A DNA stretch of 64,000 nucleotides from assembly GCF_900129725.1 (NCBI RefSeq), contig NZ_FQWQ01000001.1:3224001-3288000 (forward strand), in the 5' to 3' direction. Position 1 is the stretch's first letter; each line of letters opens with the position of its first letter. The stretch is from Chryseolinea serpens. GTDB lineage: Bacteria > Bacteroidota > Bacteroidia > Cytophagales > Cyclobacteriaceae. The notes beneath the pieces are model-generated. The model searched no databases. It was given only the letters and a program-made list of their open reading frames with translations, and had not been told where the DNA came from. The translations under genes and the position numbers were made by a program. Shown here one piece after another: positions 41,255 through 62,995 of this stretch.

Positions 41255-41737
41255 CTATTTTTTCAATAAAGACTTCAGCCTATTATACTCCCCCATTGGG
41301 AAATCATGTTTAATCCACTTCTCTTTGTAACCCTGCATTCCATGTTTGTCCAGAATCCGTTTGGCGTTGTTAAAGATCTCGGTTGAAAAATTTAAGATGG
41401 TGTCATCGCATTTGAAAACCACTTCAAATTCCTTTTCGGTTACCAGATCCCAGCTAGCCCGATCTTTGAACCATCGTATCTCAATAACCAGGCTGGTTCT
41501 ATCAGGAGATGTCAAATGGACAAGATGCTCGCCCGGCTCATCCATGGCGATCACTTTAGCATCAGGAGCTCCTTTGAGGAGCAAGTTCGCTGCTGTTATA
41601 AATTCGGCCAGTGTATCATGCAGGTATGAGACGGTCATGTCAACGCCTTGATGACCGTGATTCATGTGCACGTCCGCCCAACCGTGGTCACCTAAGTTGT
41701 AATTAATCCTTAAAGCCATAACATTTTTATCAATCAT
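41255..41737 (-). CDS. Hypothetical protein
   Basis: About 160 residues from ATG 41737 (other candidate starts are at 41755 and 41719). The protein begins MIDKNVMALRINYNLGDHGW and contains VDMTVSYLHDTLAEFITAAN, EIRWFKDRASWDLVTEKEFE and a basic C-terminus (NRLKSLLKK). It is soluble-looking with no signal peptide. It resembles small Bacteroidota proteins of unknown function that often sit beside toxin or immunity genes, but I cannot assign a family. It lies just downstream of the Y RNA-like array on the same strand. Confidence 0.7.
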   Translation of the reverse strand: MIDKNVMALRINYNLGDHGWADVHMNHGHQGVDMTVSYLHDTLAEFITAANLLLKGAPDAKVIAMDEPGEHLVHLTSPDRTSLVIEIRWFKDRASWDLVTEKEFEVVFKCDDTILNFSTEIFNNAKRILDKHGMQGYKEKWIKHDFPMGEYNRLKSLLKK

Positions 41738-41771
41738 GCTTTCATTTACGATCAAAGCTCGTCAGTCCGTG

Positions 41772-41786
41772 CGCAGTCTTTTTGCG
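41772..41786. repeat. Flank hairpin, array side (CGCAGTCTTTTTGCG)
   Basis: The 15-mer CGCAGTCTTTTTGCG (CGCA/TGCG stem) is repeated exactly at 44196-44210 on the other side of the Ro locus. Here TAGTTC follows it on the right. At the other copy the reverse complement GAACTA precedes it on the left, so the outer flank is inverted relative to the core. Confidence 0.6.
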
Positions 41787-41880
41787 TAGTTCTGATTTCT
41801 CGTTCAAAAAATCTTTGTATGATGGGAAGCGTGCGCAAATTGACGAACGCAAAAGCGAAACCTAGAATGTTTTGCTAAAA

Positions 41881-42021
41881 ACAGGGCAAAAGGCGAAAAG
41901 CGAACGTTTGGTGCTCTAACCACTGAGCTACCCCTCCCGATAATTATCGGGATCGAGGGCGGGATTCGAACCCGCGACCACCCGAGTTGAAGTCGAAGTA
42001 ACGCTATTCTACGGCACCTGT
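41881..42021 (-). ncRNA. Y RNA-like RNA E, complete, with permuted tRNA-like module
   Basis: About 141 nt on the minus strand. Terminal stem ACAGG:CCTGT. The 5' box is TGCCGTAG...GTTACTTCG and the second stem is AGCG:CGCT. A tRNA-like module follows: T-arm with loop TTCGAAT on stem GCGGG/CCCGC (41959-41975), a capped acceptor-like stem (TCCCGAT/ATCGGGA with AATT loop, extended by CCTC/GGGG after a GA bulge), TA, then D-arm GCTC-AGTGGTTA-GAGC (41913-41928). A 3' box CTTTTGC and a T5 tract close it. The T-arm precedes the D-arm, which is the reverse of tRNA order, so the RNA ends lie where the anticodon arm would be. This matches known bacterial Y RNA architecture bound by Ro/Rsr proteins. Confidence 0.75.
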
Positions 42022-42033
42022 ATCCGGCAAAAA

Positions 42034-42180
42034 GTTTAACAGAGCAAAGAACGATAAGAGACTTTTTTTGATGCTCTACCACTGAGCTATCCCTCCTGAT
42101 AATTATCGGGATCGGGAGTGGGATTCGAACCCACGGCACTCAACTTAGCGAAGTAACTCTTAGCTACGGCATCTGTTAAC
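42034..42180 (-). ncRNA. Y RNA-like RNA D, complete, with permuted tRNA-like module
   Basis: About 147 nt on the minus strand. Terminal stem AACAGA:TCTGTT (extendable by a few pairs), 5' box TGCCGTAG...GTTACTTCG, second stem TAAGAG:CTCTTA. A third helix TTGA-g-TGC:GCATCAA leads into the tRNA-like module: T-arm GTGGG/CCCAC with TTCGAAT loop (42118-42134), acceptor-like stem TCCC/GGGA continuing into a capped hairpin with AATT loop, then D-arm GCTC-AGTGGTA-GAGC (42073-42087). Each helix differs in bases from copy E yet keeps complementarity, which is good evidence for the fold. It lacks an anticodon arm and encoded CCA, so it is not a functional tRNA. Confidence 0.75.
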
Positions 42181-42194
42181 TTGTAAGTACATTA

Positions 42195-42264
42195 AGAAAG
42201 GGCAAAAGGCCATCAGAGACAGTCAATTTACAGTCGAAGTAACTCTGGTGTACGGCACCTCTCT
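42195..42264 (-). ncRNA. Y RNA-like RNA C, core-only (no tRNA-like module)
   Basis: About 70 nt on the minus strand. Terminal stem AGAGAGG:CCTTTCT (one G-U pair), 5' box TGCCGTA...GTTACTTCG, second stem CAGAG:CTCTG, 3' box CTTTTGC. The sequence passes directly from the 5' box region to the 3' strand with no T-arm, acceptor or D-arm. It therefore represents the Ro-binding stem alone, if the function assignment is right. It could be a deletion derivative or a specialised short RNA. Confidence 0.6.
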
Positions 42265-42269
42265 ATCAT

Positions 42270-42365
42270 AAAGAAGCAACAAGTGCATGGAACATTTACG
42301 GATTCGAACCGCTCTGCCTTACGGCTTTCTGCCAAACGAAGTATTTCCACACGACGGCATTCTTC
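42270..42365 (-). ncRNA. Y RNA-like RNA B, reduced module
   Basis: About 96 nt on the minus strand. Terminal stem GAAGAA:TTCTTT, 5' box TGCCGTCG...ATACTTCG, second stem TGGAA:TTCCA with a further GTG:CAC, and 3' TTGC box. Its module is short: a small hairpin around GCC-GTAA-GGC and a T-arm-like CGG-TTCGAAT-CCG, with no D-arm or acceptor stem. Spacing to RNA C is only 5 nt. Confidence 0.55.
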
Positions 42366-42376
42366 ACAATTCAAAG

Positions 42377-42515
42377 TAATAAGGAGTAACAGGCGAAGCA
42401 AGAATCGGGGCTGCGCTTGCCGGGAGTCGAACCCGGAACACTTTCCCAGAGATCTGGGTATGTGATTCCTCCCCTGAATGGAGCGAAGTATCCCACTTCT
42501 ACGACATCCTTATTA
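42377..42515 (-). ncRNA. Y RNA-like RNA A, divergent module
   Basis: About 139 nt on the minus strand and the first copy after the TROVE gene. The terminal stem TAATAAGGA:TCCTTATTA is perfect over 9 bp. The 5' box is diverged (TGTCGTAG...GATACTTCG). The module has a long hairpin (GGAA/TTCC, CAC/GTG, CCCAG-ATCT-CTGGG), a T-arm CCGGG-TTCGACT-CCCGG and a GCAAG/CTTGC hairpin in the acceptor position, but no recognisable D-arm. The second stem and 3' TTTGC box are not clear, so it is the least certain copy. Confidence 0.5.
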
Positions 42516-42584
42516 TTTTCAAAGAACACTGGAACGTCCTAAACTTTACTTTAGGCTTTTCCTTTTAATCTATAAGGCCTTCTT

Positions 42585-42614
42585 AAAACCTCCCCTTCAA
42601 GCTCGAAGGGGAGG
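42585..42614 (-). terminator. Hairpin after the TROVE gene
   Basis: Minus strand: CCTCCCCTTC / GAAGGGGAGG, a 10-bp perfect GC-rich stem (42614-42605 with 42598-42589) with a 6-nt loop, followed by TTTT. It begins 8 nt after the TROVE stop. It may terminate the mRNA or separate the mRNA from the downstream RNA array by processing. Confidence 0.75.
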
Positions 42615-42622
42615 GATAGCTT

Positions 42623-44152
42623 TCACAATTCAACTTTTTCAATTTCAGCAAGCGCTTGTTGGCCTTCTTCAATGGCTGCTAACACATCAAAGATCTTGTC
42701 AGACCAGCCCGCTATTAAATACACGCCATCGTTTCGTATGTCGATTGGCGTATTACCGTAACCTGCCAGGTCGAACAGGTACAAGTTCGCTCCTGGAGCA
42801 ATAGTTTTATATTGCGTCCACAGCGATGTTATGCTACGCTGCGTTATCTGATCAACAATGCCGTTGTTCCACAACTGGCAATCCGTGAACATCATCACTT
42901 TATCTACCACCTGTCTGCGATCAATCAGATCTTTCAACACGAGGTACCCGTTAGTAGCATAGCCCACTTCACCTTCCCGCTTGTAAAACTCCTGCACGTT
43001 GGCAAGAATATTTTTTTGTGAGACATTAATGATCTTCCAGGTGTCACCGAACATACCGGTCTGTACGTTTCCACAACGCGACTGCAACAGCATCGCCAGC
43101 ATTAAGCCGATATCATAGTTCATGATCTTGCTTTTCGCTGAGATCTCCTTTTGCATCGATCCGGAAACATCGCATGCGATCCATACGGAAGTGTTTCTTC
43201 CAAATCCACGAATGTTCATCGCACTTTGCTCAACAGCTTTCTCAAGCGCCTCAAGCACCATGGGTACCACCCCGGAAGAAATAGCTTTCACCTCACGGTA
43301 GGCAGACAGGAAACGGAAAGGCAATTGCTTTGATTTTGCGATCGCATCACGATTCGTCAGGTAAGCACACACCTCTTCCATTACTTCCATTGACACGTCA
43401 GCTTCGATAATATTCCGAAGGTTCCGCATCAGCGCCATGTAGCCCAATTTTCCACTGGTGATCAACTCTTCCCACTTGACGCGAAACGCCACCTTCTTGT
43501 GTTTTTCATTTTCAAAGCTTTGCTGACCGAGCGCAGACAATTCTGTTTCCCATGTGTATGGAACATCCAAGGATCCTTTAGCAATTTTATCAAAGAGCGC
43601 TTGTTGCTGTTCATTTATCGCTTTCGGGTGAACAATAAACAAAGCGTCTTTTAACTTGATCTCCCCAGCCCGGTCATACTTAGCAAACTGGTATTCATCG
43701 AACTTATTGAATGCCTCCGACAATCCGTTTTGGATCTGTTTGGAAAGCTTGTTCAGTTTCTTTGAACCGTTTCGTTCGTTAGCCAACTGGTAGTAAGCAA
43801 GCAATTCAGTTATTTCATCAGCGCGCTGCACCACTCCCTTTACAGCTTTACCCACCAGGTTGTTACCGGATTGAGTTTTTGCCAATTCAACGGCCAGCAT
43901 TAAGGGTACACTGCGCAGGTACATCTTGTTTCGCGTATAGACCGCCAGTTTTGCTACGAACGCCGGATCGTTTTTCATGATCAATGAACGGATCCTGTCC
44001 ATGCGCTTATCAGCAGCTTCATAGAACTTATCATTCAGGGAAGTCGTAACGACAGCACTGTAAAGTTCCACGCGCTCACTCAGGCCGAAAGCCTCTGCGC
44101 CTTCATAGTTTGTCACTGCCTGTTTTGCTTTGCGAAATACATTGAATTTCAT
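42623..44152 (-). CDS. TROVE-domain protein, Ro60/Rsr homologue
   Basis: 509 residues from ATG 44152; upstream in-frame codons to 44443 form an implausible extension. The TROVE HEAT-repeat ring covers about residues 1-320 (GLSERVELYSAVVTTSLNDK; FVAKLAVYTRNKMYLRSVPL; YMALMRNLRNIIEADVSME). A vWA-like domain with MIDAS motif DVSGSM (328-333), TNG near 400 and MMFTDCQ near 424-430 completes the fold. Ro60 and bacterial Rsr are RNA-binding rings that hold Y RNAs and misfolded RNAs, often with exonucleases such as PNPase or with RtcB repair genes. No RtcB or nuclease partner is adjacent here. Five Y RNA-like elements follow on the same strand, which strongly supports the assignment. Confidence 0.95.
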   Translation of the reverse strand: MKFNVFRKAKQAVTNYEGAEAFGLSERVELYSAVVTTSLNDKFYEAADKRMDRIRSLIMKNDPAFVAKLAVYTRNKMYLRSVPLMLAVELAKTQSGNNLVGKAVKGVVQRADEITELLAYYQLANERNGSKKLNKLSKQIQNGLSEAFNKFDEYQFAKYDRAGEIKLKDALFIVHPKAINEQQQALFDKIAKGSLDVPYTWETELSALGQQSFENEKHKKVAFRVKWEELITSGKLGYMALMRNLRNIIEADVSMEVMEEVCAYLTNRDAIAKSKQLPFRFLSAYREVKAISSGVVPMVLEALEKAVEQSAMNIRGFGRNTSVWIACDVSGSMQKEISAKSKIMNYDIGLMLAMLLQSRCGNVQTGMFGDTWKIINVSQKNILANVQEFYKREGEVGYATNGYLVLKDLIDRRQVVDKVMMFTDCQLWNNGIVDQITQRSITSLWTQYKTIAPGANLYLFDLAGYGNTPIDIRNDGVYLIAGWSDKIFDVLAAIEEGQQALAEIEKVEL

Positions 44153-44502
44153 AACCGTTTCGTTTAATTGATGATACAAAGGTTGGGGCGAACTACGCAG
44201 TCTTTTTGCGCAGTAAACTTTTTTACGTTTTTTATTAAATTTTTTCACATGTCTGCAAACAGGAATACCCTCATACGCTACCGAACGATAGGCAACTGCC
44301 TGAAAAACAGGCAAAAGGTGGACTATGGACGATGACCGGCGCTTGTTCCGAAGGCAACAACAAAAAAGCGCTAACAGGGCAATCCCATTGATCAGTTTTC
44401 TTGCCCAGATAACGCTGTCTGGCGATTGAGTCTTCTTGAACATTAAGGCAAATGAGATGGATTATTGCTATTTTTCGATCGCACGCAAAATTTTAAAAGT
44501 TG
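44153..44502. other. Divergent region upstream of TROVE and CDGSH genes
   Basis: This 350-bp gap contains the second CGCAGTCTTTTTGCG hairpin (44196-44210) and a TGCCTG-AAAAA-CAGGCA hairpin (44297-44313). Next to the latter is, on the minus strand, CCTTTTGCCTGTTTTT, nearly the same as the 3' end of RNA E. No matching 5' box TGCCGTAG is present, so it looks like a solitary 3' half or a shared regulatory element. Promoters for both genes should lie here. Confidence 0.5.
44196..44210. repeat. Flank hairpin, TROVE promoter side (CGCAGTCTTTTTGCG)
   Basis: Exact copy of the 15-mer at 41772-41786. It lies about 45 bp upstream of the TROVE ATG and is preceded by GAACTA, which is the reverse complement of the sequence following the other copy. 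The two copies bracket the whole Ro/Y-RNA locus. Confidence 0.6.
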
Positions 44503-62669: not shown

Positions 62670-62995
62670 AGGATTTTTTGTTTGAAATGTCGCACATTCC
62701 TACTCTGTTAAATGGGTTTTCGGAAACCCCCAAGTATGATGATCTCTAAGTCGATTGAATAAAAGATTTGGCTCCAGGCCCCGGAACAATCGGTGAAATC
62801 TTCCGGGCGCAATAAAATTACATTTCTAAGATAGCGCGAATTAAAACGAAGTCAAAGGGGATCTGCCTGTATTCAGGTGGCACATTGAATCAATGGTCGA
62901 TAAATGTTCGAACACAAGTCGATTGGTGTGGCCCCGGTCATCGCGCGGGCTCTTTTGTTTTCGCATGAAAAGACTCCGGCCGGAAGCAGCGCCGA
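62670..62995. other. Intergenic region between H1-like gene and AraC gene
   Basis: About 326 bp with no credible gene. It should contain the promoter for the small basic protein and the end of the AraC transcript. No clear terminator is seen. Confidence 0.4.

Follow-up and report, generated by a model that had tools for sequence, protein, structure and literature searches.

Within a 64,000-nucleotide stretch of the Chryseolinea serpens genome (contig NZ_FQWQ01000001.1, positions 3,224,001 to 3,288,000; hereafter the window), a gene for a TROVE/vWA protein of the Ro60 (Rsr-like) kind is followed on the same strand by five RNA elements, A to E. An earlier note on this DNA had described the arrangement, and our analysis confirms it. 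The 509-aa reading frame matches Pfam TROVE (3.8e-29) and, under the cut-off, vWA_Ro60 (2.1e-5), and solved structures of TROVE domain-containing proteins (9l5y/9kop) match the protein with an E-value of 2.5e-27. It is the single TROVE gene detected in the 8.36-Mb source genome. Its nearest relative, among the best 80 of 248 relatives, is found in Chryseosolibacter histidini (84% identity; Cytophagales, Bacteroidota). The elements lie downstream of the gene at 41877-42515, all on the minus strand:

42623-44152, minus strand: gene for the TROVE/vWA (Ro60, Rsr-like) protein, 509 aa, ATG at 44152
42377-42515, minus strand: element A, 82-nt module with a T-arm, like the Deinococcus Y RNA; closing score 36
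42266-42369, minus strand: element B, 45-nt module with a T-arm-like hairpin and a T-loop word, core P1 GAAGAA:TTCTTT; closing score 35
42195-42264, minus strand: element C, minimal type, 17-nt loop and no tRNA-like module; closing score 32
42036-42179, minus strand: element D, YrlA type with a permuted tRNA; closing score 33
41877-42025, minus strand: element E, YrlA type with a permuted tRNA; closing score 31

The gap separating element A from the TROVE stop codon holds, by eye, a minus-strand hairpin rich in G+C with TTTT after it (42585-42614); the terminator scan of the window did not report it.

All five elements are built on one plan: a terminal helix P1, TGYCGT, a helix P2 of 8 positions, WTACTTCG, a module of 17-92 nt, the returning strand P2', a strand of 9 nt with TTGC or TTAC as its last bases, and P1'. 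The spacers between them, first given as 5-14 nt, are about 1-15 nt according to where P1 is ended. The fixed segment that had been noticed exists and reads TGYCGT-N9-WTACTTCG, but the consensus proposed for it fails in A (TGTCGT, ATACTTCG) and B (ATACTTCG). A second covarying helix had been seen in B to E, correctly, and omitted from A; P2 can be drawn with 8 positions in every element, also in A, if G-U pairs and some mismatches are allowed. The TTGC-type box at the 3' end is present as well, though not as a free motif, as its final two bases pair with the GY of TGYCG. In element A, TTAC is compensated by the U of TGUCG, and across 36 YrlA-type relatives the compensation appears as CG in 24 and UA in 12. 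The modules of D and E have the permuted order T-arm, hairpin-closed acceptor stem, D-arm. The T-arm of A is visible in its alignment to Rfam model RF01053, having been missed by our scripted classification of T- and D-arm words. These tRNA-like modules (permuted tRNA in D and E, T-arms in A and B) and the shared dyad described below were missing from the earlier note. In bacterial Ro60-associated Y RNAs the two ends pair to form a stem whose internal loop carries conserved bases, the Ro-binding module. The array adjoins a TROVE gene and has such a paired-end stem with a conserved internal loop, supporting the reading of A to E as Y RNAs.

TROVE loci of relatives were taken from two sources: 291 genomes of the order including C. 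serpens, 73 with a match, from which 30 loci were taken, and genome contigs carrying the best 80 of 248 relatives. L008, L010, L012, L017, and L021 were removed because each duplicates the gene of another locus, and L001 and L002 because they are further pieces of the C. serpens TROVE gene. After deduplication there were 105 TROVE loci. They carry 354 elements, of which 326 lie on the downstream side of TROVE and 28 do not. In its strict form, the motif has 172 occurrences on the TROVE strand and one on the opposite strand (184 and 1 in the 110 loci before duplicates were removed). That the terminal helix differs between copies yet stays complementary was well observed: 80.2% of the 354 elements have a P1/P2 closing score of at least 30, against 4.2% of 1770 swapped pairings, and 94.1% against 22.3% score at least 26.

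We aligned 36 of 80 distinct YrlA-type elements and 34 of 37 short elements, preselected by a P1/P2 pairing score of at least 28 and, for the YrlA type, additionally by T-loop and D-arm words. Given no structure, RNAalifold recovers P1, P2, the T-arm, a 7-bp acceptor stem, and the D-arm from the 36 YrlA-type elements. Double changes are found in 26 of the 32 pairs of this consensus structure, while the D-arm is almost invariant. In the YrlA type 95.6% of the cells are paired, compared with 71.5% when shuffled and at most 51.0% when slid, and in the minimal type 93.0% compared with 63.1% when shuffled; the preselection tilts the P1/P2 share of these percentages towards structure, the T-arm, acceptor, and D-arm stems lying outside it. 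Covariation in homologous loci, for which the earlier note had proposed R-scape, is strongly positive by RNAalifold and shuffling. A pattern search for further Y RNAs in the C. serpens genome gave 8 matches (the five of the array and 3 isolated ones) against 2 in the reversed control, and no clear others.

At a permissive threshold, cmscan aligns E (38.1 bits, E-value 1.1e-6; score unchanged on 181 bases) and D (32.1 bits, E-value 6.3e-5) with YrlA, RF02553, whose gathering score is 69, and A (34.2 bits, E-value 3.7e-4) with the Deinococcus Y RNA, RF01053, whose gathering score is 80. D and E are YrlA-like without being members of family RF02553. A scan at gathering score over the window and seven of the loci reached no Y RNA candidate with a Y RNA model. 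The elements are thus YrlA-like RNAs and related types that Rfam thresholds miss where scanned, and the Ro60 and Y RNA reading of the locus is supported. The sole above-gathering Rfam match in the window is a DUF805b RNA at 62697-62733 (42.7 bits).

Might A to E instead be remnants of decayed tRNA genes, or of a tRNA cluster, next to Ro60? D and E do carry canonical T-loop and D-arm words, and 28 of the 105 loci have tRNA genes near TROVE on the same strand. ARAGORN, on the other hand, reports no tRNA within the window, and the order of D and E is permuted, with a closed acceptor stem that covaries over 36 relatives and is enclosed by P1/P2. With no ARAGORN match and a conserved permuted structure, we reject decayed tRNA genes as extremely improbable.

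The earlier note held that a packed family of five would be new, which was too strong. At least three elements lie downstream of TROVE at 68 of the 105 loci and at least five at 21, with a range of 0-7; counting closed elements only, the numbers are 63 and 19. Flanks vary (mostly 1.5 or 4 kb, some shorter), making these counts lower bounds. At seven loci no element is downstream; six of them have upstream ones and L070 has none anywhere. An array of five is on the high side, yet not exceptional in the phylum. By class, 106 closed elements have both T- and D-arm words, 104 the T-arm word only, and 45 are short. Such arrays could have arisen by passive duplication of ordinary Y RNAs beside Ro60, the differences between modules being drift and one member being the one that matters. 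The varying number of downstream elements would fit this, as would L108, where four successive YrlA-type elements (their starts 242-1146 nt past TROVE) are 77-93% identical to one another, a tandem expansion. Drift would erode structure, however, and both aligned types retain covarying structures; the distinct types also recur at many loci. On the passive reading, the dyad and repair genes described next would bear on Ro60 and not on the need for several RNAs. We consider passive duplication unlikely.

More interesting than the size of the array is a dyad common to RNA-repair genes. It occurs twice around the array, the features concerned being:

44194-44212, no strand assigned: candidate operator TGCGCA-N7-TGCGTA; the TROVE start codon lies about 42 nt downstream
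41770-41788, no strand assigned: second dyad copy, flanked by the array and the 166-aa gene; the terminator scan lists it as terminator-like on the plus strand
41255-41755, minus strand: 166-aa gene, possible regulon member, adjoining the second dyad copy

The 166-aa gene has no Pfam or NCBIfam match at E 0.001 and, at E 1e-8, no homolog at any of the 104 remaining TROVE loci. CGCA-N7-TGCG is present within 250 nt upstream of TROVE at 69 of 104 loci, compared with at most 2 for each of the other spacings from 0 to 15. With the two words reversed, 17 matches fall at one spacing and at most 2 at any other; we attribute the 17 to the extended site itself containing the reversed words. By density, there are 79 sites in 26,000 bp upstream of TROVE and 47 in 827,181 bp elsewhere in the loci. 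A promoter-like TTTG follows about 16 nt after the dyad at TROVE loci, in the window at 44177-44180 by reading. The dyad could be a terminator or processing hairpin, with the repair genes merely sharing an RNA element, and the copy at 41770-41788 resembles a terminator. The constant 7-nt spacer before TROVE, the TTTG element, and the presence of several copies where a WYL gene and either TROVE or RtcB diverge all argue for an operator, leaving the hairpin explanation improbable.

The C. serpens genome has 8 sites of the form TRCGCA-N7-TGCGYA, against 1 in the reversed control:

before TROVE and the Y RNA array
before the 166-aa gene at 41255-41755
before two RlaP genes (PF10127, 9.9e-21 and 1.8e-81)
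before a gene for a WYL-WCX-PhyH protein
about 0.9 kb ahead of a Band-7 gene that is followed by RtcB, a YrlA-like RNA lying in the interval
before an operon of a PNK-like kinase, Thg1, and a 2OG oxygenase
before a 91-aa uncharacterised gene
inside a reading frame

Five of the eight thus precede TROVE, the RlaP pair, WYL, Band-7/RtcB, and the PNK-like/Thg1 operon. Eleven further genomes hold 28 sites of the longer pattern, spread over 10 of them (reversed control 3), and 18 of these directly precede either TROVE (8) or RtcB, WYL, RlaP, PhyH, and Hen1 (10; the Hen1 gene, in a relative, has a Hen1_L match of 1.4e-108). The eight before TROVE are expected, the genomes having been selected for TROVE loci, and 3 of them are shared with a divergent WYL gene. 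Another four are placed more loosely: one with Band-7 757 nt off, one at a homolog of the first gene of the Thg1 operon, one just after RlaP, where the longest RtcB frame has its 5' end, and one between TROVE and RtcB. YrlA-like RNAs (45.2, 46.8, and 38.5 bits) without a Ro motif lie between dyad and Band-7 (L122:4355-4452; L136:1752-1875), and the tRNA-like module may be common to the Ro60 and Band-7 systems. HEPN_Cthe2314, HEPN_AbiV, and DUF5677 genes also stand behind dyads (L152, L159, L165; genomes G293, G295) and are possibly conflict genes in the regulon.

The WYL gene adjoins the Band-7/RtcB genes in C. serpens. At the TROVE loci, WYL is present at 41 of 105, divergent and upstream at 40, and RtcB at 35 of 105, downstream on the same strand at 34. 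Because the WYL gene neighbours the dyad in C. serpens and at many TROVE loci, we take its product as the candidate regulator. Among 290 genomes of the order (C. serpens excluded, and two genomes matching mainly in the PhyH half taken off the WYL list), 38 have TROVE with a close WYL homolog, 34 TROVE only, 35 WYL only, and 183 neither; Fisher's test gives 2.9e-9, uncorrected for kinship and with a WYL limit (E 2.8e-90 or better) chosen after the list was seen. With these two kept on the list, the counts are 38, 34, 37, and 181 (Fisher 8.7e-9). Leaving out one genus gives 2.4e-17, on which we do not rely since our list covers just 28 of that genus's members. In 30 TROVE genomes, the exact dyad was found in 10 of 20 with a close WYL homolog and 0 of 10 without (Fisher 0.006, kinship uncorrected). 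Against solved structures, the best match of the WYL protein was an unrelated enzyme (E 0.066), with PafC at 0.38. An SOS box bound by a LexA-type repressor would be another explanation of the dyad. Ro60/Rsr units elsewhere respond to DNA damage (PMC7790460). The Bacteroidetes LexA-like motifs GGA-N5-TCC and CTAA-N5-TTAG (PMC8565304) are unlike CGCA-N7-TGCG, a mismatch that is not absolute as some diverged LexA-like motifs are also reported there. We regard a LexA box as very improbable. Our literature search, which was not exhaustive, found no publication linking Ro60, Y RNAs, and a WYL regulator, and in the passages seen of PMC4012209, PMC9569102, PMC8190616, and PMC7824862 no link to the Ro60-Y RNA-dyad setting was found.

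Taken together, we think it probable that this is a set of Y RNAs with a shared Ro60-binding part and varied second modules, in an RNA-repair regulon run by a WYL protein and acting through adaptors or decoys. By analogy with known systems, we infer the following mechanism. The elements, once expressed, would bind the neighbouring Ro60 through one module (P1, the TGYCGT loop, the 8-bp P2, and WTACTTCG) and would display the second modules, two of permuted-tRNA (YrlA) type, two with T-arms, and one minimal. The Ro60-Y RNA unit would belong to an RNA-repair regulon with RtcB and Band-7, the RlaP pair, PNK-like/Thg1, and, in a relative, Hen1. Marked by CGCA-N7-TGCG, this regulon would most likely be run by the WYL-domain regulator sensing damaged nucleic acid; WYL domains of PafBC, DriD, and SiwR bind single-stranded DNA and that of WYL1 binds single-stranded RNA (PMC10693628). 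Cleavage of tRNA may then induce the regulon, and Ro60 would recruit tRNA-handling enzymes to damaged RNA through the Y RNAs, each serving as an interchangeable adaptor or gate. In Deinococcus, where alone bacterial Ro60/Y RNA functions had been studied according to a 2020 paper, a Y RNA tethers Ro60 (Rsr) to PNPase (PMC7790460). Additionally or alternatively, the Y RNAs could serve as uncleaved tRNA decoys, and the tRNA-like domain of YrlA has been suggested to possibly inhibit anticodon nuclease competitively (PMC7790460).

Several results weigh against this joint reading. None of the array's Y RNA matches in Rfam reaches the gathering score, and for B and C no Y RNA model matches even at the permissive threshold. 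In the minimal type, 27 of 500 shuffles equal or exceed the observed count of pairs with double changes, and class C, lacking a module, is unexplained by the adaptor idea. A search of the main text of a Bacteroides thetaiotaomicron transcriptome paper for Y RNA, YrlA, Ro60, and TROVE found none of these terms named (PMC7366714). As to the dyad, 3 of the 8 C. serpens sites precede uncharacterised genes or fall in a reading frame, and 6 of the 28 in further genomes precede other genes (two HEPN families, DUF5677, and three unassigned). The exact dyad is absent within 250 nt at 35 of 104 TROVE loci. Among these, L042, L060, L088, and L108 have a site with one mismatch, L040 and L046 have the symmetric GTGCA-N7-TGCAC in the usual position, and three Emticicia loci (L064, L074, L112) have the exact dyad farther off, 1.8-2.5 kb upstream, in front of Y RNAs and tRNAs located ahead of TROVE; 26 of the 104 have neither the exact, one-mismatch, symmetric, nor distant form. 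A search for an alternative common dyad in the 35 loci gave only A/T-rich words, in at most 9 of 35 compared with 5 when shuffled. To the uncorrected kinship and the late choice of the WYL limit are added the 10 of 20 close-WYL genomes without an exact dyad at TROVE and the 34 TROVE-only genomes, 26 of them from one genus with no close WYL homolog. WYL control is therefore not universal.

Outside the main finding, ARAGORN matches at the TROVE loci are on the TROVE strand in 182 of 185 cases. The 28 loci mentioned above carry 145 tRNA genes on that strand, near TROVE and among the Y RNAs, with at least three at 17 loci (L038, L039, L048, L063, and L071 are among the loci with tRNA genes); the 145 are counted in flanks only, exclude overlaps with Y elements and opposite-strand matches, and include one that runs off the locus end. 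Where a tRNA with the same anticodon is present elsewhere in the genome, those at TROVE are 57-74% (G298) and 54-69% (G300) identical to it, compared with 71-93% between the tRNAs elsewhere in the two genomes (best identity, 28 anticodons). By sequence comparison, the TROVE-locus tRNAs of G298 and G300 are a divergent second set with anticodons mostly also found elsewhere in the genome. Seven tRNAs at TROVE loci have the Leu (tag) anticodon (L071:7046-7119; also L034, L038, L039, L058, L063, L096), and six of them are 74-75 nt long, L063's being 92 nt. A tRNA-Leu has a long variable arm, for which 74-75 nt is too short. These tRNAs fit a replacement or decoy set.

More tentatively, and less likely true than the regulon itself, Bacteroidota may have an RNA-damage response parallel to SOS. 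A WYL sensor of broken RNA or nucleotides would control Ro60, the Y RNA set, genes for RNA ligases and for end healing, and at many loci a divergent second tRNA set, the permuted-tRNA Y RNAs and shadow tRNAs being decoys or replacements against anticodon nucleases.

Outside bacterial chromosomes, 39 plasmid records have a TROVE match, among them haloarchaeal plasmids with TROVE genes about 28-31% identical to that of the window (records H3-H13). Two haloarchaeal plasmid TROVE loci have no sense Y motif just downstream of TROVE; one antisense match to the main form and two relaxed matches were found. Phage DNA resembling a Ro60-Y RNA unit amounts to a 66-nt match in one Caulobacter phage under two accessions.

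A conserved dyad ties Ro60 and a Y RNA array of several types to RtcB, RlaP, Thg1, and, in a relative, Hen1, a candidate regulator gene adjoins Ro60 at many loci, and the analysis supplies hundreds of Y RNA candidates. Among known RNAs, YrlA (RF02553) likewise joins a Y module to a permuted tRNA-like domain (T-arm, closed acceptor stem, D-arm) beside Ro60; D and E differ in scoring well under the gathering score and in being two of five tandem members. The alignment of element A to the Deinococcus radiodurans Y RNA (RF01053) spans the entire model and includes the shared UACUUC strand and the T-arm, though with 34.2 bits against 80 and among five unlike members. In the same phylum, B. thetaiotaomicron is one of two species whose Ro60 ribonucleoprotein immunoprecipitates contained Y RNAs, according to a review passage that states neither array size nor regulation (PMC11277228). 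The Salmonella rsr-yrlBA-rtcBA operon also brings together Ro60, Y RNAs, and RtcB, with the tRNA-like domain of YrlA. That operon has the CARF-domain regulator RtcR and two Y RNAs, whereas here there are a WYL gene, the CGCA-N7-TGCG dyad, and more Y RNAs, and in Chryseolinea also RlaP and Thg1, with the parts spread over several loci of the genome (PMC7790460). The nearest functional precedent is the Anabaena TrcR regulon (PMC10272220). TrcR belongs to the ribbon-helix-helix repressors and has a site of 8 bp, and Ro60 and Y RNA are not among the targets given in the passage; as proposed here for the WYL protein, one autoregulated factor stands over rtcB and a slipin gene, and it also controls a silent operon of 26 tRNAs.

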